Shown: in pieces, positions 35,170 to 44,775 of the stretch | Layout: every line of letters begins with the position of its first letter | Numbering within the stretch: position 1 is the first letter of the stretch | Assembly (NCBI GenBank): GCA_023663735.1 | Contig: JAMPGV010000016.1 | Location: 1 to 45,539, forward strand | Source: Muribaculum sp. | Lineage (GTDB): Bacteria; Bacillota; Clostridia; Lachnospirales; Lachnospiraceae | Length of the DNA stretch: 45,539 nucleotides | Direction of reading: 5' to 3' | The notes under the pieces: model-generated | Seen by the model: only the letters and a program-made list of their open reading frames with translations | Database searches by the model: none | What the model was told of the DNA's origin: nothing | Made by a program: the position numbers and the translations under genes

Positions 35170-36705
35170 TTAAAATACAATTTTTCTTTTATTCAGCGCG
35201 CTCAAACAGCCCACCGCCAGCGCCGCGCACACAATGCACACGGGCCAGCTCACCAAAAACGAGGCGGCTATCGGCGTATAGGTCAGACAATACACCAGCA
35301 GATTCGATACCGCATGAACGGCCAGCGCCATCTTAAAGTCCCCGAAATACTCATAGGCATACGCGATCAGGCATCCCATGATGAAACCGTATACCCCCTG
35401 CACGGAATTCATGTGGTACACGCCAAAGAGCGCGGAGGAGACAAAGAGCGCCATCTTGGGATTGATGAATCTGCGCAGATAATTGTGTATGATCCCGCGG
35501 AACAACAATTCCTCCGCCACGGGCGAGATCACGCCGAAGGTAATCAATCCCAGCAGAAACGAGGCGGAATACTGATCCTCCCGCACCGCCTGATACGCCC
35601 CCGACTTGTCCACGATTCCCAGAAGCTCCAGCAGCAGGTTCAGCCCAAGCACCGCTCCCACGGCCGCCCCTGCCAGCAGAAGATAACTTGACCTGCCCTC
35701 GCGCCGCAGGTATCTGAGTTTATTTTCCTCCGCCGTCTTTTGGATCAAAAGCTTCGCATTGGACCATACCGCCACTGCGCCGCCCACAAACCCCAGCGCC
35801 GATTTCAGCACGCCCTGATTGCCGGTAAAAGCAAAATCTGCGTCCCCCATCGCCGCCTTGTCCCGCACGAACAAAAAGGCGTCCAGCGCCGCCGGTAGAT
35901 TCATGTCCCACAGCTTGACACAGGCCAGTTCCACCGCATACATGACAACGCTGCGCACCAGCATGAACAACAGAAAAGAATAGAGCATCACCCAGATCCG
36001 CTGGAAGGTCAGACCCTTCGGCTCATTCGCCGCCTTCTCTTCCTCCACGCCGCGCATCAGAAAACGCTCCAGCTCCTCCACGCTGCGCACGATATAATCC
36101 GCCTTGGCCGCTTTCAGCTCCTCCATGCTGCCGTATCCGTAGGCCACGCCCACGCTCTCGATTCCCAGCGCCTTCGCGCCCTCCACATCAAAGCTCCTGT
36201 CGCCGATCATATAGACCTGTCCCTTTTGGATGGGCTTGTACGCAAACAGGCGGTTTAACGCCTCCTGCACCACCTCGTCCTTGTTCTCCCTGCTGCCGTC
36301 CAGCTCGCTTCCCACGACCACCTTAAAATACTTGCGCAGGTCAAAGTGATCCAAGATCCGCTCCACGAACACCTGCGGCTTGGAGGAAGCCACAGCCAGA
36401 AAAAAGCCCTTGGACTGCAGCGTATGAAGCATCTTCGGAATCCCTTCATACACCTCGTTCTCAAAGATTCCCGTGTCCTGAAAACGCTCCCGGTACTTCG
36501 CCACCGCCTCCTCCGCCTGACCCGCGTCGAAACCGTAGAAATTCATGAAGCTGTCCCGCAGGGGCGGACCGATAAACTGCTCCAGCTTGGCGCGGTCTTC
36601 CTCCTCAATCCCGAACGACTGCAACGCATACTGTACGCAGGTGGTAATTCCCACCCCGGGGTCGGTCAATGTTCCGTCCAAATCAAACAACAGATATTTT
36701 TTCAT
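35170..36705 (-). CDS. Fusion: HAD phosphatase (phosphoglycolate phosphatase-like) with CPBP intramembrane protease
   Basis: Residues 1 to about 215 form a complete HAD hydrolase: FDLDGTLTD with catalytic Asp8 and Asp10, VASSKPQVF as motif II, Lys and GDRSFDVEGAK as motifs III and IV. After a basic linker, about eight membrane segments follow from 228 to the end. They contain the CPBP/ABI signature: PVAEELLFRG (about 395), FGVYHMN (about 430) and HAVSNLL (about 465), the Glu and His residues of glutamic-type intramembrane proteases. Its ATG follows the greA stop codon directly and uses a Shine-Dalgarno inside greA. Both halves look catalytically intact, so this is a genuine fusion rather than a misread frame. 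Substrates are unknown. Confidence 0.88.
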   Translation of the reverse strand: MKKYLLFDLDGTLTDPGVGITTCVQYALQSFGIEEEDRAKLEQFIGPPLRDSFMNFYGFDAGQAEEAVAKYRERFQDTGIFENEVYEGIPKMLHTLQSKGFFLAVASSKPQVFVERILDHFDLRKYFKVVVGSELDGSRENKDEVVQEALNRLFAYKPIQKGQVYMIGDRSFDVEGAKALGIESVGVAYGYGSMEELKAAKADYIVRSVEELERFLMRGVEEEKAANEPKGLTFQRIWVMLYSFLLFMLVRSVVMYAVELACVKLWDMNLPAALDAFLFVRDKAAMGDADFAFTGNQGVLKSALGFVGGAVAVWSNAKLLIQKTAEENKLRYLRREGRSSYLLLAGAAVGAVLGLNLLLELLGIVDKSGAYQAVREDQYSASFLLGLITFGVISPVAEELLFRGIIHNYLRRFINPKMALFVSSALFGVYHMNSVQGVYGFIMGCLIAYAYEYFGDFKMALAVHAVSNLLVYCLTYTPIAASFLVSWPVCIVCAALAVGCLSALNKRKIVF

Positions 36706-37206
36706 CTAAAAACTCCTTATTTTATCTCCGTCATCCACGGTATTTTCAATCTTGACAATGCGCACGTCATATCCCACGGACTCGCTCACCTGCACATGAG
36801 CCGTCTCACCCGCCTTCCTGCCCAGCAGCGCTTTGCCAAGCGGTGACTCGTTGCTGATCAGCCCCTCCAGAGAATTGCCCCGCACCGTGGTGACGATCTT
36901 GTAAGTTTCCTCGCTTCCGTCGTCCAGAAAAGCCACCGTCACCGTATTGTTGATGCCCACTTCGTCCGCCGCGGAATCCTCGGAGATCACCCGCGCCGTC
37001 CGGATCATCCGCTCCAGATACCGGATGCGGCTCTCGTTCTGATTCTTCACTTTCTTGGCCGCATGATACTCAAAATTCTCACTCAAATCCCCGTGCGCCC
37101 GAGCCTCTTTCACATCCTCCAAGGCCTTCGGCCGCACCACCAGCCTGCGGTACTCGATCTCCTCTTCCATTTTCTTGATATCGCTGGGCGTCAATTCGTC
37201 ATACAT
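36706..37206 (-). CDS. greA: Transcription elongation factor GreA
   Basis: The 166-residue protein has the N-terminal coiled coil with tip acidic residues (ARAHGDLSENFEYHAAKK) and the C-terminal FKBP-like domain (NNTVTVAFLDDGSEETYKIV, ISNESPLGKALLGRKAGET). GreA rescues backtracked RNA polymerase by stimulating transcript cleavage. A ribosome binding site GGGAG precedes the ATG. Unusually it sits inside an envelope-type operon, 18 bp after the MraY-like gene and abutting the HAD-CPBP fusion. Whether it is the only Gre factor of the genome cannot be seen. Confidence 0.95.
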   Translation of the reverse strand: MYDELTPSDIKKMEEEIEYRRLVVRPKALEDVKEARAHGDLSENFEYHAAKKVKNQNESRIRYLERMIRTARVISEDSAADEVGINNTVTVAFLDDGSEETYKIVTTVRGNSLEGLISNESPLGKALLGRKAGETAHVQVSESVGYDVRIVKIENTVDDGDKIRSF

Positions 37207-37224
37207 AAGCGCTCCCTCTCTCCT

Positions 37225-38190
37225 TTATCCCTGAATCCCCAAAACCACCGCCGCGGACACAATGATCTGGATGATGGCAAACCGATACACCGTCTGGGTG
37301 TTAGACCACCCCCACACCTTGCGCACATGGTCGTGCAGCGGCGTCCTCGTGTGGGTGAGGATATGAATTTTGCAAAACCGCAGAAGCGCCACTTTCACCA
37401 GCCCCAGACCGCCGTCGAGCATCAGCACAACGGCCACCGGAAGATACAGCACGGGACAGCCCGTCTTCAAGATGGCAATGCTGATGAACAATCCCATGGC
37501 GCGGCTTCCCGCATCTCCCATCATCAGCTTGCTGGGCGTGGCGTTATACCACAAATATCCCAGAATGCAGACCGAGAAGAGCAGAATCGCAAAAGAGAAA
37601 TTCTCGGGCCTGCCTTTGATGCGGTCCACCAGATAAATCGTCATCAGCGTGATGATGCCCAGCGTCCCCGACAGCCCGTCCACTCCGTCGGCGCAGTTTG
37701 TCACGTTCACGGATCCCCACACCAGCGCCACCGCCAACAGGGCAAACACCACCGGATGCAGCACGAATTTCACATGAAAAAGCGCCAACTCCACCACATT
37801 GGAATTGTATTTCAAAAACGTCATGGACACCAGCGCCGCCACGCACAGATCCAGAAATCCCTTCTTGTATTCGTTCCACGGCGTCTCCGACGCATCGTCC
37901 AGATAGCCCGTGAGCATACAAATCGTAAGAAGGATCAAATAGATGGTCATCTCCGCCTGCAGCGGAATAAAGAGCAGCGCCGTCGCCACGAACACCAGCA
38001 CAAAGATGATGCCCGCCCCTCTGGGTTTTCCAGCAGACAGCTTCCCGTCATGGGCAAATTCCCGGCCGCCGTCCTTGGGCAGATAGACGCTCAATTTCCC
38101 GGTGGCCAGCACCGTCGCCGCAAATCCGCACAAAATTCCCGCAAACACATAAAGACTGCTGCCGCCCGCAGGCCAAAACTGATAAATCAT
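37225..38190 (-). CDS. MraY-like phospho-N-acetylmuramoyl-pentapeptide-transferase family membrane enzyme
   Basis: The 321-residue protein has about ten membrane helices and the polyprenyl-phosphate hexose-1-phosphate transferase signatures: GYLDDASE (Asp-Asp), VNVTNCADGVDGLSG, MGDAGSRAMG and a C-terminal HDHVRKVWGWSNTQTVYRF that parallels the MraY His-rich loop. MraY transfers phospho-MurNAc-pentapeptide to undecaprenyl phosphate. The absence of the dcw cluster suggests a second paralogue or a displaced gene. The ATG at 38190 has GGGGAGG seven bases upstream; the open frame extends to 38304 through the repeat at 38221-38284 and is not used. It is the first gene of the greA operon. Confidence 0.85.
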   Translation of the reverse strand: MIYQFWPAGGSSLYVFAGILCGFAATVLATGKLSVYLPKDGGREFAHDGKLSAGKPRGAGIIFVLVFVATALLFIPLQAEMTIYLILLTICMLTGYLDDASETPWNEYKKGFLDLCVAALVSMTFLKYNSNVVELALFHVKFVLHPVVFALLAVALVWGSVNVTNCADGVDGLSGTLGIITLMTIYLVDRIKGRPENFSFAILLFSVCILGYLWYNATPSKLMMGDAGSRAMGLFISIAILKTGCPVLYLPVAVVLMLDGGLGLVKVALLRFCKIHILTHTRTPLHDHVRKVWGWSNTQTVYRFAIIQIIVSAAVVLGIQG

Positions 38191-38220
38191 AACGACACCT
38201 CCCCTTCGATGTGTGTATCC

Positions 38221-38284
38221 AGACGATTGCGAAACGCTCACTTCGGAAAGCGTCATTGTGCAAATTGGCGATTCGCAAACGTCT
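38221..38284 (-). repeat. REP-like palindromic element, copy 2
   Basis: A 64-bp element with ends AGACGATTGCGAA and TTCGCAAACGTCT (13-bp inverted repeat, one mismatch). Its reverse complement aligns along its whole length with 13521-13585, sharing CGTTTGCGAA, AATTTGCACAATGAC and TTTCGCAA. It sits 31 bp upstream of the mraY-like start codon. Confidence 0.65.
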
Positions 38285-38300
38285 GAATGTGTGTATCTTA

Positions 38301-41183
38301 TCACAAAAAAGGCCTGAACGCAATCCGGCTGTCGCGCTCCGTGTAAACCTCCCGCAGTTCTTCCGCCGCTTTCTCCACAGTCTGATACAAATCCGCCGCG
38401 GACATGCGCAAGGCGCCGGCTCCCCAGACAACGGTCTGCTCCAGCGCATCGGACGTGGCCACCGTCACCTGATACCGGCTCCCCAGCTCATGCACCGACC
38501 GCTCGATATACTGATCCGCCGTCTCCGCTTCTTTCGTGTAAACCACGTCGATATTGTGATAACGCATTGAGCGCCCCGGATTGCCCTTGACTTTATAAGC
38601 GTCGAACACCAGAACCAGCGCGCCTCCCGCGGTTCCCTGATAATTGCTCAAAATATCCATGAGCCGGTCTCTGGCGCTGTCGATGTTGGCTCGCGCCAGT
38701 TCCCGCAGTTCTTCCCATGCAAAAATGATATTATAGCCGTCCACCAAAAGACAGGCTTCCTTCCGTGTCCCGCCGGTCTCCCCGCGGGCGTTCCCCACCT
38801 CCTGTGCGGTTTTGCGCCTCCCGCTCTCATAGGCGTCCCGGCGGCTGACATGATACCGTCTCCTGCGCCGTTCGTCCCGCTCATGTCCCCCGTATGTCTG
38901 CCGGAAAATCGTCTCGATCTCCTCCTGCGTGATCACACGCTCCGCACGCTGGCCGGACGCAGGAACCCTGCGGCCATATCCCGCATTCCCGGCGCCTGCG
39001 TCTCCGCCGCCCGCAGCCTCCGGACAATCCTCCCCATAGCTTAGCGGCACAGCCGCCTCACCGCCCTCCGCATCCTGTGTCAGCCCAGCCTCCGCCAGCC
39101 GCTTCACGGATTCCGGAATCTCCGTATGGGCATACTCCGGCACCCGATCCCAGCTCACCACAAATCCCGCCCCATGGGCGCAGAACACCGACCCCGTGGG
39201 ATTCTCCACATCCGCCTCCGGGTCATACCCGCGCGCTGCGATCACTTCCTCCGCATTGTGACAGGGCGCATAGCCGTCCAGGACACAGCTCAGATGCCCT
39301 TCCCCGTGCGTGTAGGCGTTGACCTGCCGCTGATAAGCGCCCATCGCCGCCACGGGCGCCCTGCCCACAAGCGTACTGCGGCCGCCCTCCGTCACGGGGG
39401 ATTCAAAGCTCCCGCACATCCGCTGCACATCCGCCATGGCTCGCCCCAGACATTCCGCCGGTAGCTCCAGCACAAAGGAAAACATCGGCTCTAACAGCAC
39501 ATTCTCACAGTTCATCAGCCCCTGCCTAAGCGCCCGGTAGGTCGCCTGCCTGAAATCGCCGCCCTCCGTGTGCTTCACATGGGATCTGCCCGCCACCAGA
39601 AGAACCCGCAGATCCGTCACGGGAGACCCGGTCAACACGCCCACATGCTCCCGCTCCTCCAGATGAGTGCGGATCAGCCGCTGCCAATTCCTGTCCAGCA
39701 TGTCCTCGCCGCACAAGCTGGCAAACTGCAGTCCGCTGCCCCGCTCCCCCGGCTCCAAGAGAAGCGCTACCTCCGCATAATGCCGGAGCGGCTCAAAGTG
39801 GCCGATGCCCACCGCCCCCTTAGCGATCGTCTCTTTGTATAAAATGCTTCCCTCGCCAAAACGCACCGAAAGCCCGAACCGCTCTGCAATCAGCTTCTCC
39901 AAAACCTCGATCTGCACCTCTCCCATGACCTGAGCATGAATCTCACGGCTCTCCTCCTGCCACAGGATATGCAAAAGCGGTTCTTCCTCCTCCAGCTGCC
40001 GGAGTTGTCCCAGCGCCTGCACCGCATCCGCCCCGTCCGGCAGTTCCACACGATAGCTCAGCACAGGCTCCAGCACAGGAGGCCCGTTCTCCTCCTCCGC
40101 GCCAAGCCCCTGTCCCGCAAAGGTCTTGGTCAGCCCCGCCACCGCACAGACGCCGCCCGCCGATACCTCCTCCGCCGTCACAAAACCGGCTCCGCTGTAA
40201 ATCCGGAGCTGATCCGCCTTCTCCTGAAAAGATGCGCTCCCAGACGCCGCACCCGCCCGGTTCTCCACCCACATTTTCACCCGCAGACTCCCGCCCGTCA
40301 CTTTCAGATGAGTGAGCCGGACGCCGCTTGGATCTCGGGAAATCTTAAACACCCGCGCACCGAACTCCTCCGGATAAAGGGGCTGCAAGCCATACTGCCC
40401 GACGCCGTCCAGAAGCGCCTCCACGCCTTCCAGCCGAAGCGCCGCGCCAAAATAGCACGGGAATACCCTGCGCTCCCAGACCGCCTCCGCAATCTCCTCT
40501 CTGGTCAGCTCCCCCCGCTCCAGATAGGCGTTCATCAACGCTTCCCCGCAAGTGGCAATCTCCTCCATGACATGGCCGCCAAGCCGCACCTCCGGACGCC
40601 CCCCGTCCGTCCCTTGGCTATATGCCTGTCCCTCCGTGCGCCGCACGATTTCTGCATAGTCCGTCGCCGAGAACGCCACGCAATTTGCATCCAGCTGCTT
40701 TTTTAAAGACGCCATCAGCCGCGCGCCGTCCGCCTGCGGCTGATCCATCTTGTTTACAAACAAAAAAACCGGTATTTCATACCGCTCCAAAAGCTTCCAC
40801 AGCGTCCGGGTATGTCCCTGTACGCCGTCCGCTCCGTTGATGACCAGCACCGCATAATCCAGCACTTGCAGCGTCCGCTCCGTCTCCGCGGAGAAATCCA
40901 CATGCCCCGGCGTATCCAGAAGCGTCAACTCCAGATCTTTCCACACCGTCTGCGCCTGCTTGGAGAAAATCGTGATCCCCCGCTCCCGCTCCAGCGCAAA
41001 ATTATCCAGAAAGGCATCCCCGTGGTCTACCCTGCCCAGCTTTCTGATCCGGCCGCCCAGATAGAGCATACTCTCCGCCAGCGTGGTCTTGCCCGCATCC
41101 ACATGGGCAAGAATCCCCAGCACCAGTCTCTTCGATTGTTCCTGTCCGCTTCTCTGTCCATTGGACCGGGCTGTCTCCGGCAC
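38301..41183 (-). CDS. Tet(M)/EF-G-like ribosomal-protection GTPase fused to a C-terminal NYN (YacP/Rae1-like) nuclease domain
   Basis: The 960-residue protein begins (GTG start, GGAGG eight bases upstream) with a translational GTPase: AHVDAGKT (26-33), RERGITI as switch I, DTPGH (90-94) and NKMD (144-147). EF-G domains II to V follow in the order of tetracycline ribosomal-protection proteins up to about 690. A low-complexity basic linker (about 700-815) leads to an NYN/PIN-like domain from about 820: LLVDGYNIIFAW (Asp825), LVFDAYKVKG (Asp871), ETADQYIER (Asp900) and VATSDALEQ (Asp922), the acidic set of YacP. YacP/Rae1 of Bacillus subtilis cleaves mRNA in the ribosomal A site. Both domains look intact. 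Function as a ribosome-targeted RNase is inference; tetracycline resistance cannot be claimed. Confidence 0.88.
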   Translation of the reverse strand: MPETARSNGQRSGQEQSKRLVLGILAHVDAGKTTLAESMLYLGGRIRKLGRVDHGDAFLDNFALERERGITIFSKQAQTVWKDLELTLLDTPGHVDFSAETERTLQVLDYAVLVINGADGVQGHTRTLWKLLERYEIPVFLFVNKMDQPQADGARLMASLKKQLDANCVAFSATDYAEIVRRTEGQAYSQGTDGGRPEVRLGGHVMEEIATCGEALMNAYLERGELTREEIAEAVWERRVFPCYFGAALRLEGVEALLDGVGQYGLQPLYPEEFGARVFKISRDPSGVRLTHLKVTGGSLRVKMWVENRAGAASGSASFQEKADQLRIYSGAGFVTAEEVSAGGVCAVAGLTKTFAGQGLGAEEENGPPVLEPVLSYRVELPDGADAVQALGQLRQLEEEEPLLHILWQEESREIHAQVMGEVQIEVLEKLIAERFGLSVRFGEGSILYKETIAKGAVGIGHFEPLRHYAEVALLLEPGERGSGLQFASLCGEDMLDRNWQRLIRTHLEEREHVGVLTGSPVTDLRVLLVAGRSHVKHTEGGDFRQATYRALRQGLMNCENVLLEPMFSFVLELPAECLGRAMADVQRMCGSFESPVTEGGRSTLVGRAPVAAMGAYQRQVNAYTHGEGHLSCVLDGYAPCHNAEEVIAARGYDPEADVENPTGSVFCAHGAGFVVSWDRVPEYAHTEIPESVKRLAEAGLTQDAEGGEAAVPLSYGEDCPEAAGGGDAGAGNAGYGRRVPASGQRAERVITQEEIETIFRQTYGGHERDERRRRRYHVSRRDAYESGRRKTAQEVGNARGETGGTRKEACLLVDGYNIIFAWEELRELARANIDSARDRLMDILSNYQGTAGGALVLVFDAYKVKGNPGRSMRYHNIDVVYTKEAETADQYIERSVHELGSRYQVTVATSDALEQTVVWGAGALRMSAADLYQTVEKAAEELREVYTERDSRIAFRPFL

Positions 41184-41214
41184 GCGTCCTACCTCCGTTT
41201 CTGTTCTGCTTACC

Positions 41215-41366
41215 TAGTTTGATTGATTCCTATTTGACTGCTTCCTGTTTGATTGATTCCTTTTGAACGATTCCCCTTTGATCAATTCCCTTTTGATTGA
41301 TTCCCTTTTGATTGATTCCTTTTGGATTGATTTCCTTTTGGATTGATTTCCTTTTGATCAATTCCC
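41215..41366. repeat. Ten tandem 14-16-bp repeats upstream of the GTPase-NYN gene
   Basis: Units follow the pattern TTTTGATTGATTCCC on the plus strand, i.e. GGAATCAATCAAAA on the minus strand, starting at 41215, 41231, 41246, 41261, 41276, 41291, 41306, 41320, 41336 and 41352. Units 8 and 9 are identical; others differ at one to five positions. There are no spacers, so this is not CRISPR. The array lies in the leader or promoter-proximal region of the gene starting at 41183. A possible minus-strand promoter (AAGACA-N17-TATAGT) lies just upstream, around 41410-41440. Confidence 0.85.
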
Positions 41367-41464
41367 TTCATGATCCAATGTGGAATCTCTCCGAATCCGC
41401 CGCATTAAAATGCAACTATATATTCCGTTTTCTGATTTGTCTTTATTGAAATCCTCAAAAATTA

Positions 41465-43135
41465 TCATAATATCTCCAAGATCAGAAACCCGCCCTGCTC
41501 CCATACCACCTCATAAGGCGCGGCCACCGCTTCCAGATCCCCCTCCTGCAACAGATACAGCCCCTCCCGGTCACAGCCTGTCCAATCATAATTCTGCACA
41601 TTGATATAATGATATCTCTCGGAATAGGGCAGAAGCTCCCTGCCTCCCGTGACGTCCGTCTGCTCCTGATAATACCGTGCGTCGATCCGACAGGCATACT
41701 GAGTCAAGATCTCCGCCATGGACAGATTGTACTGCCAGCCCATATTGCCCGTGATATAGAGCCTCTCGCATTCCGCCGCCTCGTCCGCTGTCCGCACGGC
41801 CTCCAGAAACGCCCCGTTATAATACTGTGCCGACTTTTCCGGATACACCGTAAAATAAGCCCCCACAAACAACAGGGCGCACACGCCATAGACTGCTCCC
41901 GCCGCGGCCAGCCACTTTCCGCTCCGCTCCGCCAGACGGCAGATTCCATACGCGCAGACCAGAATCAGCGGATAAAAGATGATATTGATGCGGTTCACAT
42001 TCACTTCATAGGTGATGACGCCCGTCCAGACGCCCGTGGCCAAAAATCCCCACAGCGCCAGCTTGTGCGCCTGCGCTTTCACATCCTTCTCCCCGAACAA
42101 ATCCTTGGTGAGAAGCGCCGTCCCACCCGCCATAAAGGGAATGCTGATATGATACAGCGGCCCGAAGGCCGGAATTGCATTGAACCAATAGTCCGGGAAC
42201 TGCAAAAAACTGCTCTTAAACAGCGCGCAGATATTCTTCCAGAGTTGGGAAAAAGAAAAATTCAAAAACAAGATATCGTTCCCACGGACCGTCTCCGGAA
42301 AACGGCTCATGGTAATCCACCCGGTTTCGATGGTATCCCAGTGGAACAGATTGATAGCCAGCACCAAGACCTCCGGCAAGGCCACCGCTCCGAAGATCAA
42401 AACACAGACAAGCGCCTCCCTCCATGAAAACAGCTTCTTCCGCAATCCCCACAGGGCAAAAACGGCCAGAAACGGCGTCACGGAATACACCGCAATCCCG
42501 TAGCAATAAAAAGTCAGCCCGAAGAAAAACATGGACAAATACAGATACCTCTTTTTTTCAATGCCCAGAAGCAGGAGATAAAAGGCCAGCAAAAAGACAT
42601 GAGGAAACAGATTGCAGTCAATGGACCAGCGGCTCTGCATAAAATGCCAGGGATTGACCGCAGTGAGCGCCATTGCCACGAAAGCAAACCGAACGCCGAA
42701 CATGCGCTTTCCGATCAGATATACCAGCGCGATTCCTCCCACGCTGGCAAGCAGCATGGGCAGACGGATCACCCAAGTGTGAAATCCCAAAATACGGATA
42801 AACGGAATCATCAGATAAGACAGCAGCACGCTCATCTGGCTCACCTGCCATGCGGCAAAGTGTACGGGAAGGCGCACGCCGAACCGATCCGTCCCATACA
42901 AGGACAGCGCCCATGCGTCCACCGCCCCCATGGCCTCGTCCTGATTGACGCCAAAGGGGAGCGAACCAAACCGAATCAGCCGCAACAATAGAGCGCCAAG
43001 CAGAATCGTCCAGAACAGAACCAGCCGTTTCTTCCCTGCCATCCCGTCCCCGTTTTCCCTATAGCCGCCTCCGGCTTTTCCCTGCGCTCTCTCCATTCGG
43101 CCCTCTCTCATCCTGTTTTCCCATACTCCGCTCAT
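41465..43135 (-). CDS. GT39/ArnT-like GT-C glycosyltransferase
   Basis: The 556-residue protein has a charged N-terminus, a first membrane helix (about 36-53) and then FGVNQDEAMGAVDAWAL, the external-loop Asp-Glu motif of GT-C enzymes of the GT39/GT83 type. About eleven further helices follow (such as FHTWVIRLPMLLASVGGIALVYLIG and LYLSMFFFGLTFYCYGIA) and an extracytoplasmic C-terminal domain from about 450. Such enzymes use polyprenyl-phosphate sugars to glycosylate lipids or proteins outside the membrane. The true start may be the internal Met of MAGKKRLVLFW (about residue 32). It is the last backbone gene before the defence island. Confidence 0.8.
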   Translation of the reverse strand: MSGVWENRMREGRMERAQGKAGGGYRENGDGMAGKKRLVLFWTILLGALLLRLIRFGSLPFGVNQDEAMGAVDAWALSLYGTDRFGVRLPVHFAAWQVSQMSVLLSYLMIPFIRILGFHTWVIRLPMLLASVGGIALVYLIGKRMFGVRFAFVAMALTAVNPWHFMQSRWSIDCNLFPHVFLLAFYLLLLGIEKKRYLYLSMFFFGLTFYCYGIAVYSVTPFLAVFALWGLRKKLFSWREALVCVLIFGAVALPEVLVLAINLFHWDTIETGWITMSRFPETVRGNDILFLNFSFSQLWKNICALFKSSFLQFPDYWFNAIPAFGPLYHISIPFMAGGTALLTKDLFGEKDVKAQAHKLALWGFLATGVWTGVITYEVNVNRINIIFYPLILVCAYGICRLAERSGKWLAAAGAVYGVCALLFVGAYFTVYPEKSAQYYNGAFLEAVRTADEAAECERLYITGNMGWQYNLSMAEILTQYACRIDARYYQEQTDVTGGRELLPYSERYHYINVQNYDWTGCDREGLYLLQEGDLEAVAAPYEVVWEQGGFLILEIL

Positions 43136-43155
43136 TCCGCTCTATTCTTGTTATT

Positions 43156-43233
43156 CTAGCATCTTTTCCCTTGGATTACAAGACTGGATTGCAAGCCGTA
43201 CTGTTTTAACAAATTATCTACCTTGACTGGCAT
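43156..43233 (-). pseudogene. Truncated duplicate of the MNT nucleotidyltransferase 5' end
   Basis: 43198-43248 repeats 44648-44698 with two mismatches in 51 bases, covering the ribosome binding site and the first 12-13 codons of the MNT gene (MPV[KR]VDNLLKQY). The reading frame then runs into unrelated sequence and stops after 25 codons at 43156. It marks the edge of the accessory island. Confidence 0.75.
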
Positions 43234-43252
43234 AGGGCTATCCCTCCTGTTT

Positions 43253-43384
43253 CTAATATACTGTTCCTTTTTCTATCCATTCTTTTAATTTCTTCTGAAG
43301 TTCCTTTTTATCCGGCAAATATAATTGATACCATGCCCGATGGAAAAACCTAAGTGGATTTTGTAGCCTCGCACAATTTCCCAT
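43253..43384 (-). CDS. Short ORF or gene remnant, unrecognised
   Basis: A 43-codon frame encodes CARLQNPLRFFHRAWYQL and DKKELQKKLKEWIEKGTVY, which has the look of a real C-terminal helical segment. The frame continues upstream for only about 15 codons before a stop, and AGAGG lies too close to the ATG. I cannot assign a family. It precedes the truncated MNT copy much as another gene end precedes the intact one. Confidence 0.3.
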   Translation of the reverse strand: MGNCARLQNPLRFFHRAWYQLYLPDKKELQKKLKEWIEKGTVY

Positions 43385-43398
43385 CCTCTTTAGCAGCT

Positions 43399-43977
43399 TT
43401 ACTTTAGCACTACCTTGTAAACAGCGTTATTTGTATTCCCACTTACTTCAACATATCCTGTTCCTACAAGCATAGATAAGTATCTATATGTAGTTGATTT
43501 CGATTTTTTGAGTACTGCCTCAGCAATTTGTGGCGTTATCTCCTTATTTTTATCCAAATATTTAATAATAGGTAAAACCTTTTCGTAATTTTTCTTTGTT
43601 AAAACTTCGGTCAAAACTTCGGTCAAACTTCGGTCATTTTTTTGACCGAAGTTTTCTTTTCCATATTCAAATTCCTCATGAAATTTTATCGCCGCTTTTT
43701 TATCGCCGCTTTTTCTGTCTACATTTTCCTTACTCCGCCAAATACCATCTGCACCCACTTGTCCATACTGCCCATATCTTAGTATAGACATATATTTCTC
43801 ACATCCTGATGCATTAATCGAAACGCCTCCGTTTTCAGCATCTATAAGCGGAAGCGGCGCGTTTACTTTCCTGCATTCTTGAATCGGGATTCCTGTTGCA
43901 TAATCTTTATGTTTCGGACTTTTATCTGCACTTAGTTTATCATTTTTGCGACAACCTGTTTTTACAATATTCCTCAA
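43399..43977 (-). CDS. Winged-helix protein, probably a remnant or chimera of a larger regulator
   Basis: The 192-residue frame ends in a winged-helix-like segment: KVLPIIKYLDKNKEITPQIA, then KSKSTTYRYLSMLVGTGYVEV, similar to the C-terminal helix-turn-helix of AlbA_2/ATP-binding regulators. The N-terminal 110 residues are unrecognised and the start lies inside the HEPN gene without a clear ribosome binding site, so the true start may be internal (for example the Met of MSILRYGQYG). A second decayed copy of its middle part (SKENVDRKSG) is at 44776-44831. It contains LTEVLTEVLT, encoded by direct repeats. It is probably a decaying gene. Confidence 0.45.
   Translation of the reverse strand: MRNIVKTGCRKNDKLSADKSPKHKDYATGIPIQECRKVNAPLPLIDAENGGVSINASGCEKYMSILRYGQYGQVGADGIWRSKENVDRKSGDKKAAIKFHEEFEYGKENFGQKNDRSLTEVLTEVLTKKNYEKVLPIIKYLDKNKEITPQIAEAVLKKSKSTTYRYLSMLVGTGYVEVSGNTNNAVYKVVLK
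43601..43655. repeat. Three direct and one inverted copy of AAACTTCGGTC inside a gene
   Basis: AAAACTTCGGTC at 43601 and 43613, AAACTTCGGTC at 43625, then after ATTTTTTT the inverted GACCGAAGTTTT at 43644-43655. The last two form a perfect 11-bp hairpin within the coding frame of the winged-helix protein. Confidence 0.75.
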
Positions 43978-44308
43978 CTTTTTTAATTAATTCTTCTGCT
44001 GTTTCAACTTGTTCCTGCGTTCTTTCTCTTGTGGCAACATAAAAATCATCATAATCACTCGCATGACGAATCTCCTCTGCTCGAGAGATTTTTCTCCCTA
44101 TTTCTCTGGAGAAAATCTCTGTTTTTATATAATCTCTGTTGAAACCGCCTATCGCATCTTTATGTTTTTTATACGCCTTTTGGTCAAGAGCATGGATAGC
44201 TGATATTGCATGAAAGATAGCATAGTAAGCCCTGTTATTTGATGCCCTGTATTCTTTTGCGTCCGACAATATTTTTGCTGCTTTTAAGTCACTTTTAGCT
44301 GTTTCCAA
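43940..44308 (-). CDS. HEPN domain protein, toxin-like partner of the MNT gene
   Basis: The 122-residue protein matches PF05168 HEPN: AKSDLKAAKILSDAKEYRAS, NRAYYAIFHAISAIHAL, FNRDYIKTEIFSREIGRKIS, and SDYDDFYVATRE before a C-terminal helix. HEPN proteins of MNT-HEPN modules are RNase-type toxins controlled by the nucleotidyltransferase. The frame can start only at a TTG (44308) or non-standard codon. A good Shine-Dalgarno (GAGGGG, 44335-44340) points to start codons at 44327 or 44333 that are out of frame by one base, so a 5' frameshift is possible. It follows the MNT gene closely. Confidence 0.75.
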   Translation of the reverse strand: METAKSDLKAAKILSDAKEYRASNNRAYYAIFHAISAIHALDQKAYKKHKDAIGGFNRDYIKTEIFSREIGRKISRAEEIRHASDYDDFYVATRERTQEQVETAEELIKKVEEYCKNRLSQK

Positions 44309-44341
44309 CCTTATTTCATCAAATCAATTGCATTCCCCTCA

Positions 44342-44683
44342 CTACGCTGCTCCATACAGTTTGATCCCCTCTCTCTCAATGTTCGCATAAAACGGATAAG
44401 CTTTTAACCAATATTTAAAATGTTCCTCATATTTTGCAAGAGGTTTAATATCTACGTCATTGTCCATATTAAAATCATATGTCATATCTGATAACTGGTG
44501 TCTATAGCGCTCAATTTCTATATCTGTTATATTAAGCAAGATCATAATATCAATATCCGAATCTTCCCTATAATCCCCCCTTGCATAAGAACCATACAAT
44601 ATAACTGTTTTTAGATGCTGACCATAAATTTCTTTTATTTTGCTCACGTACTGTTTTAACAAATTATCTACCCTGACTGGCAT
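44342..44683 (-). CDS. MNT-type minimal nucleotidyltransferase (antitoxin-like)
   Basis: The 113-residue protein contains LYGSYARGDYREDSDIDIMI, the GSx10DxD signature of minimal nucleotidyltransferases of the MntA/Pol-beta superfamily, with a third acidic residue in DVDIKPL. I start at the ATG at 44683, with AAGGAGGG nine bases upstream; an upstream in-frame start at 44716 lies before this ribosome binding site. In MntA-HepT modules the MNT protein inactivates the HEPN RNase by adding AMP. Here the HEPN gene is immediately downstream and the type I restriction gene hsdR upstream. Confidence 0.87.
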   Translation of the reverse strand: MPVRVDNLLKQYVSKIKEIYGQHLKTVILYGSYARGDYREDSDIDIMILLNITDIEIERYRHQLSDMTYDFNMDNDVDIKPLAKYEEHFKYWLKAYPFYANIEREGIKLYGAA

Positions 44684-44775
44684 AAGGCTATCCCTCCTTA
44701 TTTTTCTTCCCACCATTCCACAATCTTTTCATTATTCCATAAATGTAAGAATTGTGCCATACTGCATTTGCGCCT

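Follow-up and report, generated by a model that had tools for sequence, protein, structure and literature searches.

A Rae1-type NYN nuclease fused to an EF-G-fold GTPase seems to substitute for free-standing rae1 across most of the Lachnospiraceae

Introduction

Rae1 (YacP) of Bacillus subtilis has been described as an endonuclease that acts on mRNA in the ribosomal A site, and ribosomal protection proteins of the Tet type bind a site in the A site that overlaps that of EF-G (PMC8161019). A protein that joins domains of the two kinds has been on record since 2015, when a Tet/EF-G-like GTPase carrying a YacP-like NYN RNase was reported from ten species of Clostridiales (Atkinson 2015, BMC Genomics 16:78, PMC4342817). 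Here we analyzed one such gene, a 960-codon open reading frame in a stretch of 45,539 nucleotides (contig JAMPGV010000016.1 of assembly GCA_023663735.1, hereafter the window), which is deposited as Muribaculum sp. and placed by GTDB in the Lachnospiraceae, a family common in the gut.

Results

One open reading frame encodes a GTPase and a Rae1-type NYN domain

Relatives of the window protein were collected by a pattern scan of a species-genome collection, which gave at least 597 matches and at least 588 relatives; the best 80 of these were kept, and conservation counts out of 81 refer to the window protein aligned with them. All 80 carry the GTPase and the NYN domain within one open frame, that of L078 ending at a contig edge, and their record titles are mostly those of Lachnospiraceae. 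Because both parts are encoded in one frame in 80/80 of these best relatives, an assembly join or chance is excluded. A preliminary description, made from the window sequence alone, had placed a 960-residue fusion at the coordinates now given in Table 1 and had named a frameshift or an assembly join, or absence from all relatives, as what would speak against it; the coordinates are correct, the strand is minus, and the fusion is conserved across genera. The start codon is GTG, with a GGAGG about 8 bases 5' of it as judged by eye.

Table 1. Features of the fused gene (residues in protein numbering, coordinates in the window)
Feature	Residues	Coordinates	Strand	Basis
Whole open reading frame, GTPase-linker-NYN	960 aa	38301..41183	-	Same one-frame architecture in 80/80 kept best relatives
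GTP-binding domain (AHVDAGKT, DTPGH, NKMD)	20-263	40395..41126	-	Pfam GTP_EFTU, E 5.6e-49
EF-G domain III	372-443	39855..40070	-	Pfam EFG_III, E 5e-07
EF-G domain IV	446-559	39507..39848	-	Pfam EFG_IV, E 1.4e-16
Domain IV tip loop HxKHTEGGDF	535-544	39552..39581	-	Conservation in alignment
EF-G domain V	562-643	39255..39500	-	Pfam EFG_C, E 4.2e-16
Conserved extension past domain V (PCHN ... SVFCxHGAGF)	~638-688	39120..39272	-	Alignment, invariant columns
Disordered linker (predicted)	691-808	38760..39113	-	Low predicted local distance difference test score (pLDDT); nonsynonymous substitution rate (dN) above both domains
Conserved short helix in linker, within ITQEEIETIFRQTYGG	753-764	38892..38927	-	Predicted model and conservation
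YacP/Rae1-type NYN nuclease domain	812-951	38331..38750	-	Pfam NYN_YacP, E 1.9e-48

The C-terminal domain matches NYN_YacP with 165 bits, against a curated Pfam cut-off of 24.6, and over residues 812-940 it aligns with Rae1 (Protein Data Bank (PDB) entry 5mq8), 56 of the 128 aligned residues (44%) being identical. Asp815, Asp861, Asp890 and Asp912 line up with D7, D53, D81 and D104 of Rae1 and are kept in 81/81 proteins. We take D7 and D81 to be the catalytic residues of Rae1. The acidic residues named in the preliminary description are therefore present and align with Rae1 as it had anticipated, but the positions it gave (825, 871, 900 and 922) are offset by a constant 10. As far as sequence can tell, it is confirmed that the window gene encodes a Rae1-type NYN domain with its acidic active-site residues, fused to a GTPase of EF-G fold.

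In the tree of NYN domains, 52 of the 53 fused rows fall into one clade (support 100/99) that also holds 11 free rows from Lachnospirales and the row of a split gene, in an internal order that the tree does not resolve; the other free NYNs lie outside it. The one exception among the fused rows, L139 (genome G346), has a fused GTPase with an NYN that lies among the free NYNs on a long branch (1.56), and may represent a second independent fusion or an artefact.

The GTPase has the EF-G fold but is set apart from Tet

The GTP-binding domain and EF-G domains III, IV and V, with the G motifs present, place the N-terminal part in the EF2/EF-G group of translational GTPases. The G-motif positions are invariant (81/81) except for Ala30 (79/81), and structural comparison of the predicted model has the EF-G fold spanning model residues 1-645.

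The best NCBIfam match is tet_protect (393.5 bits, E 1.4e-117). However, the scores of 393.5 and 445 bits obtained for the fusion lie below the NCBI equivalog cut-off of 775 bits, which Tet(M) (L137, 875.8 bits) and L134 (892 bits) exceed. According to PMC8161019, Pro509 of Tet(M) is located within the drug site; the same proline is numbered 591 in PMC10187937, and the numbering 509 fits the Tet(M) row of our alignment. The residue aligned with it in the fusion is Lys537, a lysine in 81/81. Neither feature is unique to the fusion: the Tet-like rows L130, L131 and L165 also fall below the cut-off (582, 453 and 606 bits) and also have no proline at this position. In the domain IV tip loop, eight of the nine positions compared are invariant (81/81) and Glu540 is kept in 80/81.

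In a GTPase tree built by a quick method and with few Tet references, the fused rows form a clade of their own beside unfused relatives and outside the Tet rows, with a support of 100 in the Shimodaira-Hasegawa-like approximate likelihood ratio test. A grouping with Tet was tested and not found, and the fused GTPases appear as a separate group, distinct from Tet. The preliminary description had called this part a Tet(M)-like ribosomal-protection GTPase: the complete EF-G fold with its G motifs stands, while the Tet(M) identity finds no support in the cut-off, the tree or the residue at Pro509, a lysine here. The nearest proteins in the tree are unfused GTPases of ~654 aa (L118-L129, L133 and L158-L164), which form one branch of 2 rows and another of 18; they have the domain IV loops of the fusion and its PCHN...SVFC extension, but neither linker nor NYN. 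This unfused group is itself neither Tet nor EF-G in the tree, and it occurs in genomes with and without an NYN gene.

The fusion is widespread in the family and rare on mobile elements

We sampled 150 Lachnospiraceae genomes from 150 genera, the window's own included, and took an NYN frame of at least 516 aa, counted by eye, as the sign of a fusion. NYN_YacP is present in 137 of them, and in 127 of the 137 it lies in such a long frame; short among the 127 are G081, G119 and G115 (516, 601 and 690 aa), the latter two broken or incomplete. A free NYN is found in 8/137 (G048, G017, G082, G005, G137, G054, G043 and G022), and the remaining 2 are G033, split in the linker, and G078, apparently cut by a contig end. 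None of the 13 genomes without NYN has the GTPase. Some GTPase relative is present in nine of the 10 tested genomes with a short NYN frame (the split G033 among them), that of G054 being only a Tet-like match of 418 bits.

In the class sample of 293 genomes, 192 have an NYN and 143 a GTPase match at E 1e-60. Of the class genomes, 124 were typed (those with a best GTPase match of at least 490 bits, plus two fragments): 99 have a GTPase frame of at least 780 aa, and all 99 have an NYN match, a figure that is partly circular in that such a frame exceeds the GTPase. The unfused form occurs in 17/124, of which 6 are without any NYN. The phylum sample of 299 genomes has 163 with NYN, and the fusion also occurs outside the class, where it was confirmed in L153-L157. 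The only NYN match in the window's own genome, which is 87% complete, is the fusion.

Matches that cover at least 80% of the query were confined to 2 records among 72,556 from plasmids and 2 among 50,697 from phages, and mobile spread was rejected on these counts. One of the two phage entries, labelled Bacteriophage sp. (L210, MT835514.1), has flanking genes that by eye resemble an ordinary bacterial chromosome, and the label is probably wrong.

Six genomes with short or broken frames were inspected. The breaks lie in the linker (G033), the extension past domain V (G383), domain V (G193) and near domain III (G119); the G domain of G211 is interrupted by an in-frame stop, and part of the GTPase is missing in G115. 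With no common break among the six, a conserved fission was rejected, errors or decay being as likely. In G033 (L188, 5516-8198, minus strand) the fusion is read as two frames that overlap by ~20 bases in the linker, either a real split or a frameshift error.

The former place of rae1 beside rlmB is closed

Six of the nine known free-NYN loci of Lachnospiraceae were looked at. Four of them (L180-L183) have the order cysS-mrnC-rlmB-rae1. In L181 sigH comes directly next; in L180, where gene identities were assigned by Pfam and the sigma factor as sigma-70 type only, other sequence lies in between. A locus of another family (L184) reads mrnC-rlmB-rae1-sigH. Among 32 chosen Lachnospiraceae genomes with the fusion, the window's own (L193) included, the examined flank of rlmB contains an NYN in none (0/32); sigH stands behind rlmB at 8-341 bp in 25/32 and was not found in the examined flank in 7/32. 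In six genomes without any NYN the rlmB flank is likewise without one, and sigH is next in 5/6, with gaps of 24-742 bp. Since no NYN is found near rlmB in these 32 genomes and sigH directly follows it in 25, we conclude that the old place of rae1 is closed; the fusion appears to stand in for the free-standing enzyme across most of the Lachnospiraceae.

Both domains are conserved and are joined by a long linker

Against five close relatives, dN is 0.14-0.18 for the GTPase and 0.15-0.19 for the NYN domain, and the synonymous rate is 0.9-2.6 where computable (NYN against L002 is saturated); these rates indicate purifying selection on the GTPase and the NYN domain alike. The linker has a dN of 0.54-0.79, above both domains. 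Its pLDDT is below 50 at model residues 689-739 and 752-793 (add 12 for protein numbering), and in the stretch from model residue 688 to 796 a single helix is predicted, at 741-752. This helix coincides with a conserved EExxxIFxxTYG, found as a simple pattern in 72/110 rows, in which E755 and I759 are invariant among 45. The preliminary description had called the linker long and basic. Its length and predicted disorder hold up, but residues 688-811 of the window protein contain 21 Lys and Arg against 22 Asp and Glu, and are not net basic; the median net charge is +2 over 110 rows, among which row L141 is an empty stretch.

Neighboring genes and upstream DNA

Clustering of the 80 loci and the window, several contigs being short, gave no neighbor family present in more than 10 loci and hence no conserved operon. 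The stop codon of the fused gene overlaps a GTG that may be the start codon of a glycosyltransferase-4 gene. On the other side, the gap between the fused gene and the PMT_2 gene upstream of it holds a 15-base tandem repeat of ~9 copies (41218-41368); by eye, the upstream DNA of 13 relatives holds neither anything similar to it nor a common leader, and Rfam has no match in 36000-43500. An attenuator or leader was rejected on these grounds. The specific antibiotic-response role that had been suggested for the gene is not borne out, no common leader being seen in the 13 relatives, no Rfam match and no widely conserved neighbor. Upstream of the gene in L013, L015, L016 and L017, inspection by eye suggests a sequence resembling a thiamine riboswitch; it lies on the opposite strand and probably belongs to a divergent gene. 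The genome of the window has a tmRNA gene.

Elsewhere in the window, adjacent small proteins with a HEPN domain and an MNT-like nucleotidyltransferase domain (Pfam) are encoded at 43940-44716 (minus strand), which we take to be the make-up of a HEPN/MNT toxin-antitoxin pair. A 511-aa protein at 35170-36705 (minus strand) joins a HAD hydrolase to an Rce1/CAAX-type membrane protease, and relatives of it occur in 6/81 clustered loci, the window counted.

Discussion

We propose that the gene is this bacterium's Rae1, permanently tethered to an EF-G-fold GTPase of ribosome type, and that it serves as a cutter of mRNA at the vacant A site, an account to which we give an even chance. The GTPase part, with GTP bound, would dock on ribosomes with an A site that has been empty or blocked too long, at the site where translation factors bind; GTP hydrolysis would withdraw domain IV and release or swing the factor; and the tethered NYN, on its linker of ~120 residues, would then enter the A site and cut the mRNA. 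The truncated complex would be left to tmRNA and the mRNA to decay. The replacement of rae1 strengthens the Rae1 half of this idea, and delivery of an RNase to stalled ribosomes can plausibly be inferred; by analogy with the known proteins, the fusion would itself bind the ribosome and cleave in the A site. Gating or guidance of the cut by the GTPase, like the order of the steps, is conjectural. A GTP-gated cutter in the full sense, in which most Lachnospiraceae have dropped the free Rae1 and cleave A-site mRNA through the fusion alone, and in which the nuclease is licensed by a ribosome-sensing GTPase that is neither EF-G nor Tet and has its own invariant decoding-site tip (HxKHTEGGDF), is put forward tentatively, as a possibility that falls short of likely.

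Several observations weigh against this account. Two of the six free-NYN loci (L178 and L179) are not beside rlmB, and the Lachnospiraceae genome G005 has a free NYN and no GTPase relative. At a threshold of 480 bits the two families also occur apart in the class sample, NYN without GTPase in 76/293 and GTPase without NYN in 6/293, with both in 116 and neither in 95. Nor do fused and free NYN strictly exclude each other within the class: G430 carries one of each, the fused NYN in a frame of 883 aa and the free one in a frame of 174 aa, and two NYN matches each are present in G269, G323 and G356. Moreover, domain IV of Tet proteins and EF-G reaches the decoding site, which would exclude the NYN at the same moment. 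Since domain IV would occupy the nuclease's place, domain IV and the NYN have to take turns or else work on separate ribosomes, and a sequential order is favored (docking, hydrolysis, withdrawal, entry of the NYN).

It has been suggested that such proteins are resistance factors of the Tet type, which dislodge tetracycline and have gained an RNase. This was the reading of 2015, when the ten clostridial cases were filed as Tet and RNase-based resistance was suggested (PMC4342817), and it agrees with the overall similarity to tet_protect and with the three Tet-like rows that likewise fail the cut-off and lack Pro509. However, the fused rows lie outside the Tet rows in the tree, their scores are far from 775 bits, Lys537 is invariant, the fusion occurs in 127/150 sampled genera of one family, plasmid records with it are very rare, and no common leader was seen in 13 relatives. 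On these grounds a resistance gene was rejected as the main account, and we regard it as quite improbable; the sequence evidence suggests a chromosomal translation-quality factor rather than an antibiotic-resistance gene. We hold it equally improbable that the protein is a factor of ribosome assembly or RNA maturation, whose GTPase would recognize an assembly intermediate and whose NYN would trim rRNA or tRNA. PMC4342817 cites an earlier proposal that the NYN domain acts in the maturation of rRNA and tRNA, and free rae1 lies mostly beside rlmB, an rRNA methylase gene, and mrnC, an RNase III-type gene, but Rae1, the closest studied relative, is described as acting on A-site mRNA and as non-essential in B. 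subtilis (PMC8266666).

The two parts might also have separate jobs: the GTPase would be a paralogue of EF-G that handles rare problems of translocation or recycling, and its fusion to the RNase would simply hold the latter close to ribosomes, with no GTP control of cutting. The existence of unfused GTPase relatives in genomes with and without an NYN gene would fit this, as would the long, mostly disordered linker. We nevertheless consider it unlikely, in view of the maintenance of the fusion across many genera, the conserved helix within the linker and the partly circular finding of an NYN match in every typed class genome with a long GTPase frame. A mere tether that concentrates the RNase and a gated delivery cannot be distinguished by sequence.

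As far as we found, in a search that did not cover the main Rae1 papers, the fusion is named in print only in PMC4342817. The available parts of PMC3814617, PMC12320835, PMC10100781, PMC6613710, PMC8266666, PMC8161019, PMC10187937, PMC11780869, PMC11346440 and PMC6294520 gave no mention of it. The architecture was thus already published in 2015; a GTPase group of its own, near-fixation of the fusion among Lachnospiraceae and its replacement of rae1 were not found in the print record so covered. A 2025 paper (PMC12320835) describes the known set of nucleases that cleave ribosome-bound mRNA as incomplete, and the routes by which bacteria free ribosomes with intact mRNA in the A site are only partly known. 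A GTPase-nuclease fusion that replaces Rae1 family-wide would link the sensing of ribosomes directly to mRNA cleavage and would offer a single-protein test system, and our analysis argues against counting such genes as tetracycline-resistance genes without proof.

Comparison with known systems

With Rae1 of B. subtilis (PDB 5mq8 and 5mq9) the window protein has in common the NYN domain at 44% identity, the acidic residues and the usually single copy. Rae1 is free-standing, a chain of 181 residues in 5mq8, whereas the NYN of the window is the C-terminal domain of a GTPase, and free NYN genes mostly adjoin rlmB, whereas the fused NYN sits elsewhere in the genome. Tet(M) and Tet(O) resemble the fusion in their EF-G-like domain order and GTPase motifs, Tet(M) being ~28% identical to it, but the domain IV tip of Tet(M) is YSPVSTPADF, where the fusion has HxKHTEGGDF. 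EF-G differs from the fusion in its tip loops and is without a fused nuclease, and identity is 23-32% across the 50 structural rows listed, which include RF3 and EF-G2. The fusion has the extension past domain V, which none of the compared rows of Tet and EF-G was seen to share. The Tet-NYN fusions of Atkinson 2015 have the same architecture as the window protein. There, they were known from ten species and were filed as Tet with a possible resistance mechanism, whereas here they appear as a separate GTPase group that is present in most of the sampled Lachnospiraceae genera and seems to replace rae1.
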